Assembly: GCA_021324165.1 (NCBI GenBank) | Contig: JAJPJR010000030.1 | Span: forward strand, 1-64,000 | DNA: 64,000 nucleotides | Source of the DNA: Armatimonadota bacterium | Lineage (GTDB): Bacteria > Armatimonadota > Fimbriimonadia > Fimbriimonadales > ATM1 | Direction: 5' to 3' | In this document: positions 8,840-17,509 of the stretch, piece by piece | How positions within the stretch are numbered: position 1 is the first letter of the stretch | Layout of the letters: each line of letters opens with the position of its first letter | Notes under the pieces: generated by a model | What the model was told of the DNA's origin: nothing | Database searches by the model: none | Seen by the model: the letters and a program-made list of their open reading frames with translations, nothing else | Translations under genes and position numbers: made by a program

Positions 8840-11103
8840 ACACGGCCATTTTGCATCTGGATTCTGCGCAGCGGCGCATCAATGAGCGCGCCCAACAGAT
8901 TTATGACAAGCAGGTTGATCGCGCGCGCCGCCAAATGGATCGCTTGATGCTGCTTCTGATGCTGCTTCAGTGGATCGCGGGCGTCGCCGCCACTCTTTGG
9001 ATTTCGCCGCACACATGGATCGGATCCATCAGCCAGCCGCACGTTCATCTTGCGGCTTCGATTGTTTTGGGAGGCATGATCAGCGCGCTGCCGGCGCTGT
9101 TCGTTTGGCGCATGCCAGGTAAACCGATCACTCGTCACACGATCGCCGTGAGCCAGATGCTTTGGTCTGCGCTGCTGATCCATTTGTCTGGCGGCCGCAT
9201 CGAAACCCACTTTCACGTTTTCGGCTCGCTTGCGTTTTTGGCGTTCTATCGCGATTGGAAAGTGTTGATCACGGCCACCGTGGTGGTTGCGGCCGATCAT
9301 CTGGTGCGCGGGATTTATATTCCTCAATCGGTGTATGGCGTTTTGGTTGCAAACCAGTGGCGGTTTTTGGAGCATGCAGGCTGGGTGCTGTTCGAAGTTT
9401 CGATTCTTACCGTGGGATGTGTCCGCGGTCTTCGAGAGATGTGGGACGTGGCGCTTCGAAGATCGGAAGTTGAAGAAGCCAAAAGCCTGACCGAAATTGA
9501 AGTTCAAAAACGCACCGAAGAACTTCGGCTTGCCATGGAAGCCTCCGATGCGGCGAACCGCGCGAAATCGGCATTTCTTGCCAACATGAGCCACGAAATA
9601 CGAACTCCGATGAACGGTGTGGTTGGAATGGCCGGACTGCTCAAAGGCACGAACCTTACCGAGGAGCAGGAGGAGTTTGCCGACACGATTATGGCAAGCG
9701 CAACAGGGTTGATGGCGATTCTCAATGACATTCTTGATTTTTCGCGCATCGAGGCCGGCAAACTTCAACTGGATGAAACCGACTTTTCGGTGAACGAAGT
9801 GGTGGAGCAGGTCGTTGGCCTTATGGCAAGCAACGCCGCGAAGAAGAACGTGGAACTGTTGATTGATATTCCGGCGGAGACAATTGCGGTGGTTGGCGAC
9901 TCAGTGCGTTTGCGGCAGATGCTTATGAACCTGGTGAGCAACGCCGTGAAGTTTACGAACGAAGGCGAAGTTTGCGTAAAACTGACGACCACGCAAGAAC
10001 CTGACCAAAAACTGAAACTGCGGTTTGAAGTGCGCGATACGGGAATCGGAATTCCCGAAGACCGGCAGGCGGCCATTTTCGAAAGTTTTGCTCAAGCAGA
10101 CAACTCCACCACGCGCAGGTTCGGCGGTTCGGGTCTGGGGCTCGCCATCACGCGAAGGCTGCTCGAGATATCAAACGGCACCTTCGGCGTGCAAAGCAAA
10201 GTTGGCGAAGGCAGCACGTTTTGGTTCGAACTCACGCTGCCAAAAGGAACGATCGCACCCGAATCCGAACCGATGATCAGCCTCAAAGACGTGAAAGTGT
10301 TGGTTGTGGATGATAACTCAACAAACCGACGCATCGTATCGGCCTGGCTTACGAGTTGGGGAACCAATCTGTGGACGGCGGAATCGGGTTCGGCGGCTCT
10401 TGAAACGTTGGAAGCGCGCAAGGAAGGTTTCGATGTGGTGCTCTTGGACTATCTGATGCCCGGCATGGACGGTATTCGCGTTGCGCAAGCGATTCAAGAA
10501 CGTTTCGGAGAGAACCGGCCGGCGGTCATTCTGCTTTCGTCGGTAGAAAACGAACACAGCCGGGCCGATCACGCTTCTTTTGGTATTGACGCATGGCTCA
10601 CAAAGCCGCTGCAATCGCAAAAGGTGCGGCAGGCGATCGAAAGATGGGTTTCAAAAAACGGCGAGCAGAAATCCAAGCGGAATCAGACGCAAGGCGAACA
10701 AGATTCTCCGCTCAAAGGATTGCGCGTGCTCGTTGCCGAAGACGAAAAGGTGAATCAACGCGTGGCGATGGCCGTTCTCGCGCGGCTTGGATGCGATGCC
10801 GTTCTCGCGGAAAATGGAGATGAAGCCGTTCAGCGGCTTTCCCAGCAGAAATTCGACTTGGTGTTGATGGACGTTCACATGCCGGTGATGGACGGACGCG
10901 AAGCCGCAAGGCGGATTCGCGAACAAGAAGCAGGCACAGGGCGGCACATTCCGATTCTCGCCGTTTCGGCGAGCGCGATGCAGCAGGATGTCGCGCTCTG
11001 TTTGGAAGCGGGAATGGACGCGCATGTAGCCAAGCCGTACACTCCCAGCCAGCTTGTTGAAAAGATCACAACCGCACTCGAACAGTTCGGCGCTGCTGCC
11101 TAA
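8836..11103 (+). CDS. Hybrid sensor histidine kinase with two receiver domains
   Basis: A 755-residue protein. A membrane domain of about five or six TM segments (about 38-198) contains the H-F-H-V-F motif near residue 125-129, an input domain also seen fused to other signalling outputs. A coiled linker (205-240) follows, then HisKA with H253 in [10 protein letters not shown], HATPase_c (N-box near 366-371, DTGIG at 401-405, GSGLGLAI at 431-438), a first receiver with phospho-acceptor D538 and a second with D679. No Hpt domain is present, so a separate phosphotransferase or response regulator is needed. It is coupled to the RedB-like gene and overlaps the convergent VPS10-like gene by 4 nt. 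Confidence 0.93.
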
Positions 11104-13796
11104 CCTTTTGCAAGCCGCGGGTCTTCTTTCACAATGATCGGCATTTCGTAAGCGATTCCGTTTGCGGTAAGCCGCACTTTGTACACGCCCGGTTGAACCA
11201 TCGGCGCACGATTGGCAAACGGAGTGTCTCCGATGACTGCTGTCATAGGAAAGAATCTTGCGGGGCCCGATTCTGAAGGAGCCGATCGCAAATCCCACAC
11301 GAACCGATGCATTCCTTCCGCGGTTGAAAGCCGTTGAAATGGCCGAATCCAATCCGCCGAAATCTGCAGCGCCTTTTCATCAACCGGAGGCGCTTTGTCA
11401 TCGCTCGAAAACCGCCGGATCAGATTGCCGTTTGCATCCAAAATTTCCAACACCAGTTTGGTTACGGGGAGCTTTAACCAGTAATCAATCGGCGCTCCGT
11501 CGGGCGGATTCTTGCCCGCAGGTTCTTCAGGAGGAAGCGGCGTATCGGTATTGCGATTCCATTCGACGCGCAGAGCGGTTTCCGGCGCAAACAGATGCAC
11601 CTGCTCTTCGAGGATTTTGGGCTGAAGTTCGCGCAAAGGAGCGATGTCATCCAAAATCCAAAAACTTCGGCCGTGCGTGCCAACCACCAGATCGCTCTGG
11701 TGGATGACGAGATCGCGAATGGATGTGGCCGGCATGTTCAACCGCAGCGGGTTCCAATGCTCGCCGTCGTCGGTCGAAAAATAGACTGCCCGCTCGGTGC
11801 CGCAAAACAGCAAGCCTTTTCTTTTTGGATCTTCTCTTATCGTTCGCACCGGTTCGCCCTGCGGAATGCCGCGCACAATTTCCGTCCACGTTTTGCCGCC
11901 GTCGTGCGTTTTGTAAATGTGGGGCTGCCAATCATCCAGCCGCATGCGGTCAACGGCCGCATAGCAGGTGTCGTCATCGAAATGACTTGCATCCAGCTGA
12001 GAAACTTTGCTCCACGGAGTGAGGGGCGACGGTGTAACGTTCTGCCAAGTTCTGCCGCCGTCTTTTGTCATCTGAATTAGTCCGTCATCGCTTCCGCACC
12101 AGATTGTGTCGAGGTTTTTACGCGATGGGGCGATTGCATAAATCACTCCCCTTCTTGGCATTGACGCCATCTCTGGTTTTGCGAACACTCCGATGTTTTT
12201 TGGAACGTCATACGTTTCGCGCGTCAGGTCGGGGCTGATCTGCTGCCACGTTTTGGCGCCGTCGGTCGTTTTGAACAAAACTTCGCCCGCGAAATACAGC
12301 ACATGAGGATCAATCTCTGAAAACATGAGCGGAGCCGTGCGCAGATACCGGTGCGGACCCGGCGGCCTGCAGTTTTCCACGACGCCGGTATCTTTGTGAT
12401 ACCGAGTCACGCGTCCGCCATACACGATATTGGGATTCAGCGGATCGGGAGCGATGTACGCATATTCATCGGCGCCAACCGGGTGCCATTCACGAAACGT
12501 GATTTGGCCGTCGTTTCCGCGGCTTGCAATCCCCACAGAACCGCTTTCCTGCTGCCCGCCATAAACGTTGTAAGGAAACTGGTTGTCAGTGATCACATGA
12601 TAAAACTGAGCTGTGGGCTGGTTATACCAACTGCTCCACGTTTCGCCGCCATTGACGCTCACGATCGCGCCTTGATCGGCGCACAGCAGCATCACATCGG
12701 GAAACTTCGGATTGATCCAAAGCGTGTGATAATCATCGCCGCCTGGAGCGCCGCGGATGCACCGAAACGTTTTTGCGCCATCAACGGATTTATAAACGGC
12801 AATCGCGCTGCAATAAACAACGTTTTCATTCCGCGGGTCAACGTCAATCTCCGCAAAATCCGATCCGCGCGCCCACACCCGCGCTTCGCTCGTCGCAAGT
12901 TTCCAATGTTCACCGCCATCGTCCGAACGATAGATGCCGCCTCCAGTGCGCGAATCAACCGTCGCATAAACGACGTTCGAATTCGAAGGCGCGACCGCAA
13001 CGCCGATGCGCCCCAATCCGTCCGAGATTCTTGGAAGCCCGTTCATGATCGCCTTCCAACTTTTGCCAAAATCGGTGGACTTATAAAGCCCTGTTCCTGG
13101 GCCCTGCCATTGACCGTTTTCCCACGGAGCCTGACGCGCCGACCACATCGCCGCATACAAAACGTCCGGATTGTTTGGATCCATCACAATGGCCGATGCG
13201 CCGGTGTCTTCATCAACGAACAAACACCGCTCCCAACTTGTGCCTCCGTCGAACGATCGGAACACGCCGCGCATCGCATTGGGCCCATATGGGTGCCCCA
13301 AAACCGCCGCCGCCACCCGATTTTTGTCCTTCGGATGAACCACGATGCCGGTCATCTGCTGCCCGTCTTGCAGGCCGGTGTTGTGCCAGTTCGCGCCTCC
13401 GTCGGTGGTTTTGTAAACGCCGTCGCCGACGCTCAAATCGGGTCTTTGCAGCCCTTCGCCGCTTCCCACATAAATCGTCTTCGGATCGCTGGGCGCAACG
13501 GCCAAACATCCAACTGAGCCTGTGGGAGCGTTGTCGAAAATCGGCTTCCAAGTGCGGCCATAGTCTGTGGTTTTCCAAACGCCGCCGTTGTTCACGCCGA
13601 TGTACATAACGTTCGGATGCACAGGATCGCCATCGCCGGCAACCGTCCTTCCGCCGCGATGCGGCCCAATGCACCGCCAACTGAGGCCCGAATATGAAGA
13701 TAACGGAAACGATTGAGCAAAACCGGTTCCCCAGATCAGCGAGAAGATCAATAAAGCGCACTTCAAACCCATGAAATAACGGTTCGCCAAAAACAA
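11100..13796 (-). CDS. Exported VPS10/sortilin-like Asp-box beta-propeller protein
   Basis: An 898-residue exported protein with a signal peptide (n-region R/K, core [16 protein letters not shown]) and at least eleven Asp-box (S/T-x-D-x-G-x-x-W) repeats, such as [40 protein letters not shown] and THDGGKTW. This matches bacterial VPS10-domain/BNR glycosyl-hydrolase-like proteins of about 900-1000 residues. The C-terminal 200 residues form a separate beta domain. The start is TTG 13796, because AAGGAG lies 5 nt upstream (13802-13807); the ATG at 13772 also keeps the signal peptide but lacks a ribosome site. Enzymatic activity is unproven for the family. Confidence 0.85.
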
Positions 13797-13830
13797 GCGA
13801 TCTCCTTTCTGCAATGCGACTTTCGGATTC

Positions 13831-14676
13831 TTACACGCAAGCCGACGCCGAGCCGACGTTGTTCGAACTGATCGCAAACCGCCCCTCGTAAACACGCTGT
13901 GCTTTGGCGCTCACCACGAGTCCTTCGTTTTCTCCGCGAGAAACCACGGCTTCGCCGCCTGGGTTTTCGACCGCCAATGCCAGCAGTTTCGGATTGTTTC
14001 GAAACCAAACTGCCGCGGCCGCGGCGCTGCCCGTTCCGCAGCCCAAAGTTTCTCCTACTCCGCGTTCCCAAATTCGAATTCGCACGCTTTTTTCGCCCGT
14101 TGGCCAAGCCCAGATCACCGATGTGCGCATCGGAAACCGCGCATCGTTTTCCAAAATCGGGCTGACGCGCGCAAACTCTTCATCGTCCGGCTCGCGCAAC
14201 CGCTCGATCACGGTGTGGGTGGAGCCCGTGGTCAGTGCGGAAGCCAGCAGTTCGCTCCCCGCAACCTGAATCGTCTGCCTGAACATTTCTGACAAACCGC
14301 ACACCACCGGCACCGAACCCGCATCGAACCGCGCAGCCGGCAGCCCAACATCAATCCATCCGCCCGCAGAAAAAACCGCCGCATTCGATCGTCCGCCATG
14401 CCGAATCTTGATGATCTCTCCAGCCGAGCCGCGCCACAAATGCAGCGCCGCGCACCGAATGCCGTTCCCGCAAAAATCTTCCGAACCATCGGGGTTGAAC
14501 ATCCGCAGTTCATGCTGGCTGTCTTGTTCGGTCAGCACAAGCAGCCCGTCCGAGCCCGCACCGAACCGTCTTGCGCAGATCGCCCGCGCAAAATCTTCGT
14601 AGTTTTCAACCGGCTGATCTATCAGCACAAAATCGTTGCCGATGCTCACATATTTATAAAACTGAATTGCGTTCAT
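13831..14676 (-). CDS. dapF: Diaminopimelate epimerase homologue, divergent substrate site
   Basis: A 281-residue protein of the DapF fold. Both active-site cysteines are present: C69 in DGSEDFCGNGIRC and C213 in ETLGCGTG, with WERG (E204, R205). IGNDF at 12-16 is also kept. However, the usual GNPH segment is GSTH (S152 for Asn), and the later conserved Asn is S186 in RTSVIW. Both positions normally bind the distal carboxylate of diaminopimelate. It may be a relaxed DapF or an epimerase/racemase for another amino acid. The ATG at 14676 overlaps the stop of the 645-residue gene (ATGA). No second dapF is visible in this window. Confidence 0.75.
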   Translation of the reverse strand: MNAIQFYKYVSIGNDFVLIDQPVENYEDFARAICARRFGAGSDGLLVLTEQDSQHELRMFNPDGSEDFCGNGIRCAALHLWRGSAGEIIKIRHGGRSNAAVFSAGGWIDVGLPAARFDAGSVPVVCGLSEMFRQTIQVAGSELLASALTTGSTHTVIERLREPDDEEFARVSPILENDARFPMRTSVIWAWPTGEKSVRIRIWERGVGETLGCGTGSAAAAAVWFRNNPKLLALAVENPGGEAVVSRGENEGLVVSAKAQRVYEGRFAISSNNVGSASACV

Positions 14677-16610
14677 TCCAGCTCTCCCGTCAAAGGTTCG
14701 ATGCGCATTTTTGCCGTCTCCATCAGCGTTTTGAACCATGCGCCATTGGGCGACAGCACAGGAAACCACCATGCCGACGGCCGGCAGTCGGTGCGGCGCA
14801 AACCGTACGCCGTGAGGTATGCGTTCCGAACCACTTTCATGCGCAGTTCGTTTGCGATCTGCTCGATCTGTTTTCTTCTTGTTCTGGTGGATTCATATAC
14901 AGGATCGGCACTGAGGCTCGCCTTTTCGGCTCCAAGCCGAACGAGAGCGGCTTTGAGATCTCTTCGTTCGGCGCGCAAGCGGGATACCGTTTCCATGCAT
15001 ACGTTTCGTTCGTGCATGTTTCCGGATCGGTACATCTGTCCCATTTTGATTTCGGTTTCCTGCCATTCGCGTTTGATCGCTCGAAGCCTGGCGCGCATCT
15101 GCTCTCGTTTTTTGTCGAGTTCCATCTGCTGCTCACGAAGCGGAACAAAACTTTCGTGCAGTTTTTCGTATTCCGCGGCCAAATCTCGAAACTCATCGCC
15201 GGCGATGCAGGTGAGCGCGCAGATCGCCGCGTGCGGGCTCCTCGCTTCGTGCAAACGCTCAAGAATCCTCTCCTGCTCCGAAACCACCTGCCGCCACTTT
15301 TCCGCAAAATCACCGCACGATACTTGCTGTGCGCCAAACCCTTGCTGCAGATGACCCGGCAGGTCGAGGCTTGAATCCACAACCGAGAGCGAATCCCAAG
15401 CGGACAAACTCACGCGCAGAATCGGGTTTACGCGAACGTCAATTCCGTTCTTGATCAGATGGTTGTGCATCGCTCTGGTTCGATGCACATAAGAAGATGC
15501 TGTTTCGTGAAAAGCGAAGATGAACTCCGATGCGAGCATGCTGATGAGCGTTATCGCCTTTCCCACCAACGCGCAGGGCCCAAACCGCGCCTCCACAACC
15601 TTCGCAAGATCGGTTATCGAACGGATTTCGGTTTTCAAGTCCACGAAAATCGGCTCCGGCGTCATGATCACCAACGCATGGGGCGCGAGCCGGATTGTGC
15701 CCCTCCCAACTCCGGGAATCACCAGATCGAACGGAATGGCGCCCGTACCAAATTTATCCAAAGAATACGTGTCCGATCCTTCAACGGCATGGTTGTAGGC
15801 GTCAATCGCAACCGTTCGTGTTGATGGATTGGTGAAAAGGTCAACGAATTGAAACCGCTTCTGATTGCATGTCCGCTCCGAAAAAGAGAGCAGCGTTGAA
15901 GTCCTGGTGATCTCCGAAGCCACATTCTTTCCTGCAACCAGTTTGTGAAAATCCGAAAGCAGACACTCGTAAAACGTTGCGAGTGTCTGCCCCATACAGC
16001 TCTCGCGGGTGTCGCACATCAAAGTGTGAATTGAATCGCCCGCAGCGATCGCAGAATCCCGAACGCTTTCCGTGCCGATCGTTTTCACCGTTTCGTTCAA
16101 AGCCCAATGAAACGTCTGCTGCAAAACTGGAAAGATCGGTTCCAAACTCAGTTCGCTGGTAACTTGCGCTCGCGGATCGCGCGCCGCAATCCCCCGCCAG
16201 CCATACGCTTCGGTGATGTGATCAATGAAAGCGGGCTCGTGCTGAGACAGTTTTTCGATCGGAACTCCCGCCTTGCTGAACGCCTCGCGCGGAACTGTTG
16301 CTTCGCTGCCGAAAAGAGCGCTGAATTCTCCCGCCGCCGACCAGAAGTTCTTCGTTGCGCCGTCGTTTTTTGGAAGCGCGCTGAATTGGCTCTGCGACGC
16401 AACTCCGCCAGGCAGTTTGGCGAAATAGTCCGTGTCGTGAATCCCCGCAACCAGGTCAACGCTCAAACCCACCTGCTCCCCGATCAGCGGAAGCATCGCC
16501 TTCAAAGGCTCGTCCCAAAACACCGTCTGCCCCAGAGCCAGCATGGGCGTACCTGGAGATGTGTCTCGAAGATGCTCGAGACAGGCCCTCACGGATGGAT
16601 CGAACGACAC
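14673..16610 (-). CDS. Conserved-looking protein of unknown function with C-terminal coiled coil
   Basis: A 645-residue soluble protein without signal or TM segments; I do not recognise a family. The N-terminal region has a patterned TPMLALGQTVFWDEP and DLVAGIHDTDYFAKLPGG. The middle has VIPGVGRGTIRL, a His-rich FHETASSYVHRTRAMHNHL, and a hydrophobic strand set suggesting an alpha/beta enzyme-like core. Residues about 470-590 are heptad-like and charged (coiled coil). It is translationally coupled to the divergent DapF homologue downstream. The GTG start at 16610 has no ribosome site but a TACAAT 7 nt upstream, so it is likely leaderless with its own promoter. Confidence 0.7.
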   Translation of the reverse strand: MSFDPSVRACLEHLRDTSPGTPMLALGQTVFWDEPLKAMLPLIGEQVGLSVDLVAGIHDTDYFAKLPGGVASQSQFSALPKNDGATKNFWSAAGEFSALFGSEATVPREAFSKAGVPIEKLSQHEPAFIDHITEAYGWRGIAARDPRAQVTSELSLEPIFPVLQQTFHWALNETVKTIGTESVRDSAIAAGDSIHTLMCDTRESCMGQTLATFYECLLSDFHKLVAGKNVASEITRTSTLLSFSERTCNQKRFQFVDLFTNPSTRTVAIDAYNHAVEGSDTYSLDKFGTGAIPFDLVIPGVGRGTIRLAPHALVIMTPEPIFVDLKTEIRSITDLAKVVEARFGPCALVGKAITLISMLASEFIFAFHETASSYVHRTRAMHNHLIKNGIDVRVNPILRVSLSAWDSLSVVDSSLDLPGHLQQGFGAQQVSCGDFAEKWRQVVSEQERILERLHEARSPHAAICALTCIAGDEFRDLAAEYEKLHESFVPLREQQMELDKKREQMRARLRAIKREWQETEIKMGQMYRSGNMHERNVCMETVSRLRAERRDLKAALVRLGAEKASLSADPVYESTRTRRKQIEQIANELRMKVVRNAYLTAYGLRRTDCRPSAWWFPVLSPNGAWFKTLMETAKMRIEPLTGELE

Positions 16611-16623: not shown

Positions 16624-17022
16624 CTAATCTTCGAGTTTTGCGCGCAGTTCCCCAGGAACCGCCACCGCCTTCCGTTCGGGGCCCATCGTAACGTGCCAAC
16701 TGAACCCTTCGGTCAGCAGCGCGTCTTCGCCCGCCCTGCGAATCTCGTACTCGAACTTGATTGAAGCCCGCTTGATCTCGGCGATGCGCGTGCGCACGAT
16801 CAGTTCATCGTCATACCGAATCTCTCCTCGATATTTCACACCCACCTCGACAACAGGCAGAAAAAGCCCTTCGGCTTCCAAACTTTTGTAGGTAAACCCT
16901 TTCGACCGGCAGAACTCTCCTCGGGCAACCTCAAACCAATAAAGGTAGTTCGCATAATATGCGTGGCCCATCTGATCGGTCTCGCCATACCGCACTCGAA
17001 TCCGCGTTTCCACCCACTGCAT
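16624..17022 (-). CDS. Acyl-CoA thioesterase, YbgC/4HBT hotdog family
   Basis: A 132-residue single hotdog domain. The N-terminal VRYGETDQMGHAYYANYL and the helix FEVARGEF carry the catalytic Asp (ETDQMG) and typical spacing of YbgC/FadM-like thioesterases, which hydrolyse acyl-CoA or acyl-ACP. The length matches the family when ATG 17022 is used; upstream ATGs at 17055-17058 would overlap the divergent gene and add unrelated residues. No Shine-Dalgarno sequence is present; TAAACT lies 7 nt upstream. The divergent GNAT start is only 22 bp away. Confidence 0.85.
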   Translation of the reverse strand: MQWVETRIRVRYGETDQMGHAYYANYLYWFEVARGEFCRSKGFTYKSLEAEGLFLPVVEVGVKYRGEIRYDDELIVRTRIAEIKRASIKFEYEIRRAGEDALLTEGFSWHVTMGPERKAVAVPGELRAKLED

Positions 17023-17029
17023 CGAGGGT

Positions 17030-17035
17030 AGTTTA
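17030..17035 (-). promoter_or_regulatory. Putative leaderless -10 (TAAACT) for the thioesterase gene
   Basis: TAAACT on the minus strand ends 7 nt before ATG 17022. It overlaps by two bases the -10-like TACAAT of the divergent gene (17034-17039), forming a compact bidirectional promoter. Confidence 0.5.
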
Positions 17036-17039
17036 CAAT
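17034..17039 (+). promoter_or_regulatory. Putative leaderless -10 (TACAAT) for the GNAT gene at 17045
   Basis: TACAAT ends 5 nt before the GTG at 17045, and no Shine-Dalgarno sequence exists in the 22-bp intergenic space. It overlaps the divergent -10-like element. Confidence 0.5.
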
Positions 17040-17044
17040 GCGTT

Positions 17045-17509
17045 GTGGCAGCCATCATTCTCGCCGATGATTCCGACCGACTCGACCAGATTCGGCGGCT
17101 GTTTCGAGAATACGAAGCGTGGCTGGAAATCAGCCTTTGCTTTCAAGATTTCGAACAGGAGTTGGCAAACCTTCCAGGAAAGTACGCCCCGCCGAAAGGG
17201 CGGCTCTATCTGCTCGAGGCTGACCAACAGTTCGTCGGATGTGCCGCTCTCCGGCCCCTCGATGAAATCACCGCCGAAGTCAAGCGGCTTTACGTGAATC
17301 CGAACTACCGAAACAGATCGTTCGGAAAAATGTTGATGAACAAACTGATCGCCGAAGCCGGATTCATCGGTTATCACCGTTTGGTGTTGGACACCCTCCC
17401 AAAAATGTCAGCCGCCATCCAACTTTACCGCTCGCTCGGTTTTCGCGACACCCTGCCGTACTATGACAATCCCGTCGAAGGCGTGGTCTACATGGAACTC
17501 GCCCTATGA
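17045..17509 (+). CDS. GNAT family N-acetyltransferase
   Basis: A 154-residue GNAT domain. Motif A is [20 protein letters not shown]: the beta-4 strand ends in RLYV, and the pyrophosphate loop R-N-R-S-F-G-K is a slightly degenerate R/Q-x-x-G-x-G/A. A later [11 protein letters not shown] is motif B. It resembles the PhnO/RimI-like small acetyltransferases; the substrate is unknown. It starts at GTG 17045 and its stop overlaps the next ATG (ATGA), so it is coupled to the alkyltransferase-like gene. Confidence 0.85.

Follow-up and report, generated by a model that had tools for sequence, protein, structure and literature searches.

A second DapF-like protein of Armatimonadota with a changed distal pocket and a constant partner gene: a candidate racemase for an amino acid other than diaminopimelate

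In solved diaminopimelate (DAP) epimerases, DapF, the distal carboxylate of the substrate is bound by the side chains of Asn64, Asn157 and Asn190 together with Arg209, and the distal amine by Glu208 (H. influenzae numbering, PMC8225329; Anabaena, PMC12039745). The same fold, with a cofactor-free pair of catalytic cysteines, also serves other amino acids in the O-ureidoserine racemase DcsC and in the histidine racemases CntK and HisR; CntK adjoins CntL and lies beside an enzyme that uses its product. The 2,4-diaminobutyrate racemase PddB acts on a substrate that lacks a distal carboxylate, and its homologues adjoin the gene for poly-D-Dab synthetase (PMC8225329). DapF of C. trachomatis, a bifunctional DapF/glutamate racemase of the kind described by NF038284, is a working DAP epimerase with Val145 at the position of Asn157, an assignment in our own numbering counted from H147, which is given as the conserved His in PMC5885031. 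In the open-licence literature Armatimonadota was not found together with diaminopimelate epimerase, nor Armatimonadetes with peptidoglycan and glutamate racemase, nor Fimbriimonas with diaminopimelic acid; the 12 best of 122 papers in a wider search did not mention Armatimonadetes either.

The DapF2 gene and the canonical dapF of the same genome

The window (the whole stretch of 64,000 nucleotides of Armatimonadota DNA that was analyzed) holds on its minus strand, at 13831..14676, a gene for a 281-aa protein that is predicted from its open reading frame, profile matches, structural model and alignment to be a DapF-fold amino-acid racemase or epimerase. It is called DapF2 here, which is our own label for the paralogue family. 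An earlier note on this DNA had described a DapF homologue with both catalytic cysteines, and these are indeed present as C69 (in a CGNG motif) and C213 (in a CGTG motif). The replacement of GNPH by GSTH (residues 151–154, with S152) and of the later conserved Asn by S186 (in RTSVIW, residues 184–189), described in the same note, is found likewise, and the role it gave the two missing Asn residues, holding the distal carboxylate, agrees with the solved DapFs (PMC12039745, PMC8225329). DapF2 therefore lacks the full distal-carboxylate set of DapF (Asn64, Asn157, Asn190, Arg209), having Ser for the Asn157 and Asn190 equivalents, and keeps N61, E204 and R205, which correspond to Asn64, Glu208 and Arg209. 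PddB is similar in being DapF-like, in having lost distal-carboxylate Asn residues and in standing beside a gene that uses its product (PMC8225329); in PddB, however, the three Asn and also the Arg have been replaced, whereas DapF2 retains Asn61 and Arg205.

DapF2 scores 147.9 bits with TIGR00652, the NCBIfam DapF equivalog, and thus passes the cut-off of 114.65; 30/30 members of the DapF2 alignment (A2) match this model. With NF038284 it reaches 48.9 bits against a curated cut-off of 350. The AlphaFold model (mean pLDDT 92.9) has the two-domain DapF fold with paired cysteines, and its Foldseek matches extend down to E 1.9e-25; in the PDB the DAP epimerases come first (the solved DapFs closest in structure are 28–29% identical to DapF2), followed by O-ureidoserine racemase at rank 14 and the histidine racemases at ranks 28 (CntK) and 48. 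The likeness to DcsC, CntK and HisR is one of fold and of paired cysteines, and the gene neighbors of CntK and HisR differ from those of DapF2.

The earlier note had raised the possibility that this gene might be the organism's only, unusual DapF, and had proposed a search of the rest of the genome for another. A PF01678 search of the genome that contains the window, which is 2.33 Mb in size and 97% complete, gave one further protein beyond DapF2, encoded on contig C33; it has 284 aa, carries GNPH as well as the second Asn (RVN), and scores 291 bits with the DapF model, against 147.9 for DapF2. Next to it lies a gene that we take, from its sequence, to be miaA-like. The window copy is therefore a paralogue, freed by the canonical dapF from the lysine/DAP task, and the notion of a sole DapF is refuted.

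DapF2 is preceded on the same strand by a gene for a protein of 645 aa (14673..16610, minus), for which open reading frame, profiles and model give no Pfam model and predict a Rossmann/class I synthetase-like core with a coiled coil at ~459–609. The end of this ORF and the start of DapF2 share the four bases ATGA (14673..14676, minus strand), an overlap that suggests translational coupling and accords with the coupling of the two genes stated earlier. Just upstream of the pair, a profile match identifies a YbgC/FadM acyl-CoA thioesterase (16624..17058, minus). Following DapF2 on the same strand is a Sortilin/VPS10 and BNR-repeat protein (11100–13895, minus; 931 aa from the first start), which matches NF045728 below the cut-off.

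Conservation, spread and ancestry of the DapF2 family

For comparison, 65 DapF2 sequences (64 once near-copies at 95% identity were removed) were set against 82 other DapFs. These comprise 17 canonical Armatimonadota copies, obtained without residue patterns, and 65 DapFs of other loci. The latter were retrieved with patterns in which residues ~63–70 and ~203–210 are fixed, so that the comparison with them is fair only outside those positions. Position 152 is S/T in 65/65 DapF2 proteins and N in 80/82 of the others (15/17 canonical Armatimonadota copies, the rest having Ala, and 65/65 from other loci). At position 186, 64 of the DapF2 proteins have S and one has T, against N in 82/82 others (17/17 and 65/65). 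S152 and S186 are therefore not the result of chance or of sequencing error. The two canonical copies with Ala at the Asn157 position belong to genomes of family f2 (L185 in G034 and L189 in G012), read GAPH, and keep the second Asn.

Further differences surround these residues. From N61 to C69 there are 9 residues in 65/65 DapF2 proteins as against 10 in 82/82 others, 65 of which had been chosen by patterns fixing ~63–70, and position 67 is Asp in every DapF2; in Anabaena DapF a Glu in the matching loop pairs with the Arg (PMC12039745). Neighbors in the pocket are changed as well, from Met to Thr and from Phe to Trp. By contrast with these substitutions, both cysteines, Asn14, Asn61, Glu204, Arg205 and His154 are invariant in 65/65 DapF2 proteins, which indicates that catalysis is under selection. 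Relative to DapF as defined by TIGR00652, DapF2 thus shares the fold, the catalytic cysteines, the proximal-end residues and Asn61/Glu204/Arg205, and differs at the two Asn positions, in the shorter loop with its invariant Asp67, in forming a clade of its own, and in its fixed partner.

The sources of the 65 aligned sequences are exclusively Armatimonadota or unassigned bins, and a scan of GTDB genomes likewise placed the best matches of DapF2 in Armatimonadota, Fimbriimonadia included. With the window protein as query, 50/61 genomes of the order gave a match at E <= 3.6e-47, the next match being at 1.2e-38; four of the 11 genomes without such a match (G009, G030, G031, G042) carry partial or split copies. 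The S/T and S residues recur in 29/29 relatives aligned within the order and in 20/20 second DapF copies fetched from other families of the phylum. In a quick maximum-likelihood tree a single branch (SH-aLRT 95, length 0.16) parts the 65 DapF2 from the 82 other DapFs, so that DapF2 does not fall among DapF sequences. This topology makes a single ancient duplication likely and not proven, because the branch is short and the tree method quick. The DapF variant seen in the window is thus genuine, old and fixed, and it is accompanied by a constant partner that lacks a known family.

Co-occurrence, neighborhood and fold of the 645-residue partner

The 645-aa family is present in 56/61 genomes of the order and in 195/291 genomes of the phylum sample. 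Its association with DapF2 was evaluated between two classes of genomes. The 157 clear DapF2 genomes are those in which the best match of A2 (DapF2) has an E-value near 3e-79 or lower, with no limit on completeness; the 53 clear negatives were selected as genomes with one match, at E about 1e-68 or worse, and at least 90% completeness (some, such as G242 and G271, fall slightly to either side of the limit). Neither class includes partial copies or genomes whose E-value fell between about 1e-68 and 1e-78. The partner gene occurs in 152/157 genomes of the first class, the exceptions (G032, G082, G102, G209, G211) being 64–88% complete, and in 12/53 of the second, each ~90% complete or more (Fisher p 3e-27, a value that, like the counts, takes no account of kinship among these related genomes). 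The partner therefore does not always need DapF2. Genomes that keep the 645-aa gene and lack DapF2 include three of genus g20 (G025, G027 and G167, the last of which has MurI) and G159.

In 76 of the 120 genomes examined for gene order, a part of those listed, the partner immediately precedes DapF2 in the same orientation, and in 74 of these adjacent pairs the genes are -6 to +44 bases apart. This arrangement reaches the distant families f10 (G070, G078, G079) and f24 (G202, G203); in the genomes read from f11, f12, f13 and f19 the two genes are not adjacent. No other neighbor is general enough to serve as a clue to the pathway. The thioesterase occurs near DapF2 in 4/36 contexts, and it is probably not part of the module because it is found near it in only three loci besides the window. 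A gene that we take from its sequence to be TlpA-like thioredoxin is seen in 8/36 contexts, and presumed TlpA/thioredoxin-like genes recur near DapF2 in loci of the f2 type (L073–L075, L078, L156–L158, L165), where the 645-aa gene is elsewhere. Presumed F-type ATP synthase genes (5/35 contexts) mark the f13-type loci L076, L082, L239, L241 and L250, in which the stretch holds no 645-aa gene, and genes that appear to us riboflavin-like occur in 3/35. The matches listed in a protein-mode plasmid search were all below 60% identity, ten of them at about 30%.

Pfam searches with 30 members of the 645-aa family returned nothing more than weak coiled-coil matches and others of low score. With the model of the partner (pLDDT 92.0, pTM 0.84), Foldseek finds class I LysRS (1irx) at E 4.4e-4. 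VIA-align puts BshC (4wbd) first, with Z 13.8 and rmsd 11.9 over 429 aligned residues, and 1irx second, with Z 13.0 and rmsd 4.0 over 280; further matches have Z <= 11.6 and lie mostly over the coiled coil. BshC is absent among the 50 Foldseek matches listed. When the partner profile was run against the sequences of solved structures, the matches were weak, to adaptin and mostly to coiled coils (best E 0.013), and PADLOC gave weak matches only (best E 0.0089).

BshC of a bacillithiol-like pathway was considered as an identity for the partner. The two proteins share a helical coiled-coil region beside an alpha/beta core, and by eye we take a GQ...P..K / HDxD motif of the partner to resemble BshC. 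The identity was rejected nonetheless: PF10079 (BshC) was found in 0/61 genomes and in none of the Pfam matches of the 30 partner members; hhalign of whole and cut profiles gave no kinship (probability 0.42, with only four BshC rows and thin profiles); and BshA was over its cut-off in 0/61 genomes. The likeness of the partner to class I LysRS and to BshC is thus confined to the fold. With no profile kinship to BshC and no BshA over its cut-off in the order, a ligase or activating role is read from the fold; the partner would most likely activate or ligate the amino acid handled by DapF2.

Probable change of substrate in DapF2 and its meaning for the phylum

The reading that we hold to be somewhat better than even is that DapF2 is a specialized Armatimonadota paralogue that would invert an amino acid other than free L,L-DAP, acting with a ligase-like partner. 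From the conserved residues, the fold and the gene context we infer an enzymatic activity, a change of substrate and a ligase role for the partner. Inversion at the alpha-carbon would proceed by the cofactor-free mechanism, with proton transfer by the two cysteines, as the conserved residues and fold imply. The rebuilt distal pocket (two Asn-to-Ser changes, a loop one residue shorter, Met-to-Thr and Phe-to-Trp) would accept a substrate other than L,L-DAP, whose distal group would still be polar or charged but placed differently; an amino and/or acidic group is probable there, given that DapF2 retains the Arg, the Glu and the first Asn with which DapF binds it. The upstream protein would then activate or ligate the same amino acid. 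A racemase beside an enzyme that uses its product is the favored model because PddB and CntK lie beside such enzymes. This reading is supported by the canonical dapF in the same genome, by S/T at both Asn positions in every DapF2 and in 0/82 others, and by the separate clade, the shorter loop and the biased distribution of the partner. Against it stand the genomes in which the two genes are apart, those that have the partner without DapF2, and the derivation of the ligase role from fold resemblance, the profile comparison with BshC having come out empty.

The main competing view, to which we give a clearly smaller though real chance, is that DapF2 is still a DAP epimerase, either as an isoenzyme or acting on a DAP derivative such as a DAP-containing peptide or amide, the serines replacing two of several hydrogen bonds with the substrate unchanged. 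The TIGR00652 score of DapF2 and the matches of the 30 A2 members to that model favor this view, and the retained Asn61, Glu204 and Arg205 would fit DAP or a DAP-like substrate. Moreover, G016 (98% complete), G156 (93%) and G024 (91%) show no DapF match besides DapF2. Had both substitutions been known in a proven DapF, the earlier note's suggestion of a different amino acid would have been undermined; PMC5885031 supplies half of this precedent, since Asn157 is replaced in the working C. trachomatis enzyme (as it is, by Ala, in two canonical Armatimonadota copies) and its Asn190 equivalent is kept (N179). Position 186, which is Asn in every other DapF compared and never in DapF2, speaks against an unchanged substrate, as do the canonical copy in this genome and the loop deletion with its fixed partner gene. 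The suggestion of a different amino acid accordingly gains from the separate clade, remodeled pocket and fixed partner, and is tempered by the chlamydial Asn157 precedent.

An improbable alternative is that DapF2 is a glutamate racemase which stands in for MurI and makes the D-Glu of peptidoglycan. The scarcity of MurI in the order prompted this idea: MurI (TIGR00067) is over its cut-off in 2/61 genomes (this one and 60 relatives) and absent from this genome, the broader PF01177 is found in 6/61, D-amino-acid transaminase (Dat) is over its cut-off in 0/61, and here the aminotransferase of class IV is IlvE. C. trachomatis DapF offers a parallel, being DapF-like, with its Asn157 equivalent replaced, in genomes without MurI, and racemizing Glu (PMC5885031). 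Unlike that enzyme, DapF2 scores far below the NF038284 cut-off, has a canonical dapF elsewhere in its genome, and occurs with MurI in 55/157 clear DapF2 genomes, a proportion like that of the clear negatives (20/53; Fisher p 0.74). Neither MurI nor DapF2 is present in 33/53 negatives, including G025 and G027 of the same order. Replacement of MurI thus looked strong within the order, and the phylum sample showed no anticorrelation. In most of the 61 Fimbriimonadales genomes D-glutamate is accounted for neither by MurI nor by Dat over its cut-off, and the 33 DapF2-lacking genomes without MurI pose the same puzzle. That DapF2 has ceased to be an enzyme and now serves the 645-aa protein as a structural or regulatory subunit is very improbable: the fixed neighbor in many genomes and pocket changes common to the whole clade would suit it, but the cysteine pair and proximal-end residues, invariant in 65/65, would be needless in a dead subunit.

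If DapF2 is, as preferred here, a racemase for another amino acid, a bolder and distinctly tentative extension is that it forms with its partner a hitherto undescribed pathway of two enzymes, inherited from an ancestor of much of Armatimonadota, in which a D- or meso-amino acid would be ligated to a small molecule or cell-wall precursor to give a phylum-specific metabolite.

Since DapF2 lies over the DAP epimerase cut-off, automatic annotation would call it a DAP epimerase, yet all members examined differ from DapF in the pocket. Reconstructions of lysine or cell-wall synthesis should accordingly treat a 'second dapF' in Armatimonadota with caution. If the substrate does differ, DapF2 would add to the few characterized DapF-derived racemases one with a co-occurring partner of no known family, and would open a practicable route to the biochemistry of a phylum that has been little studied.
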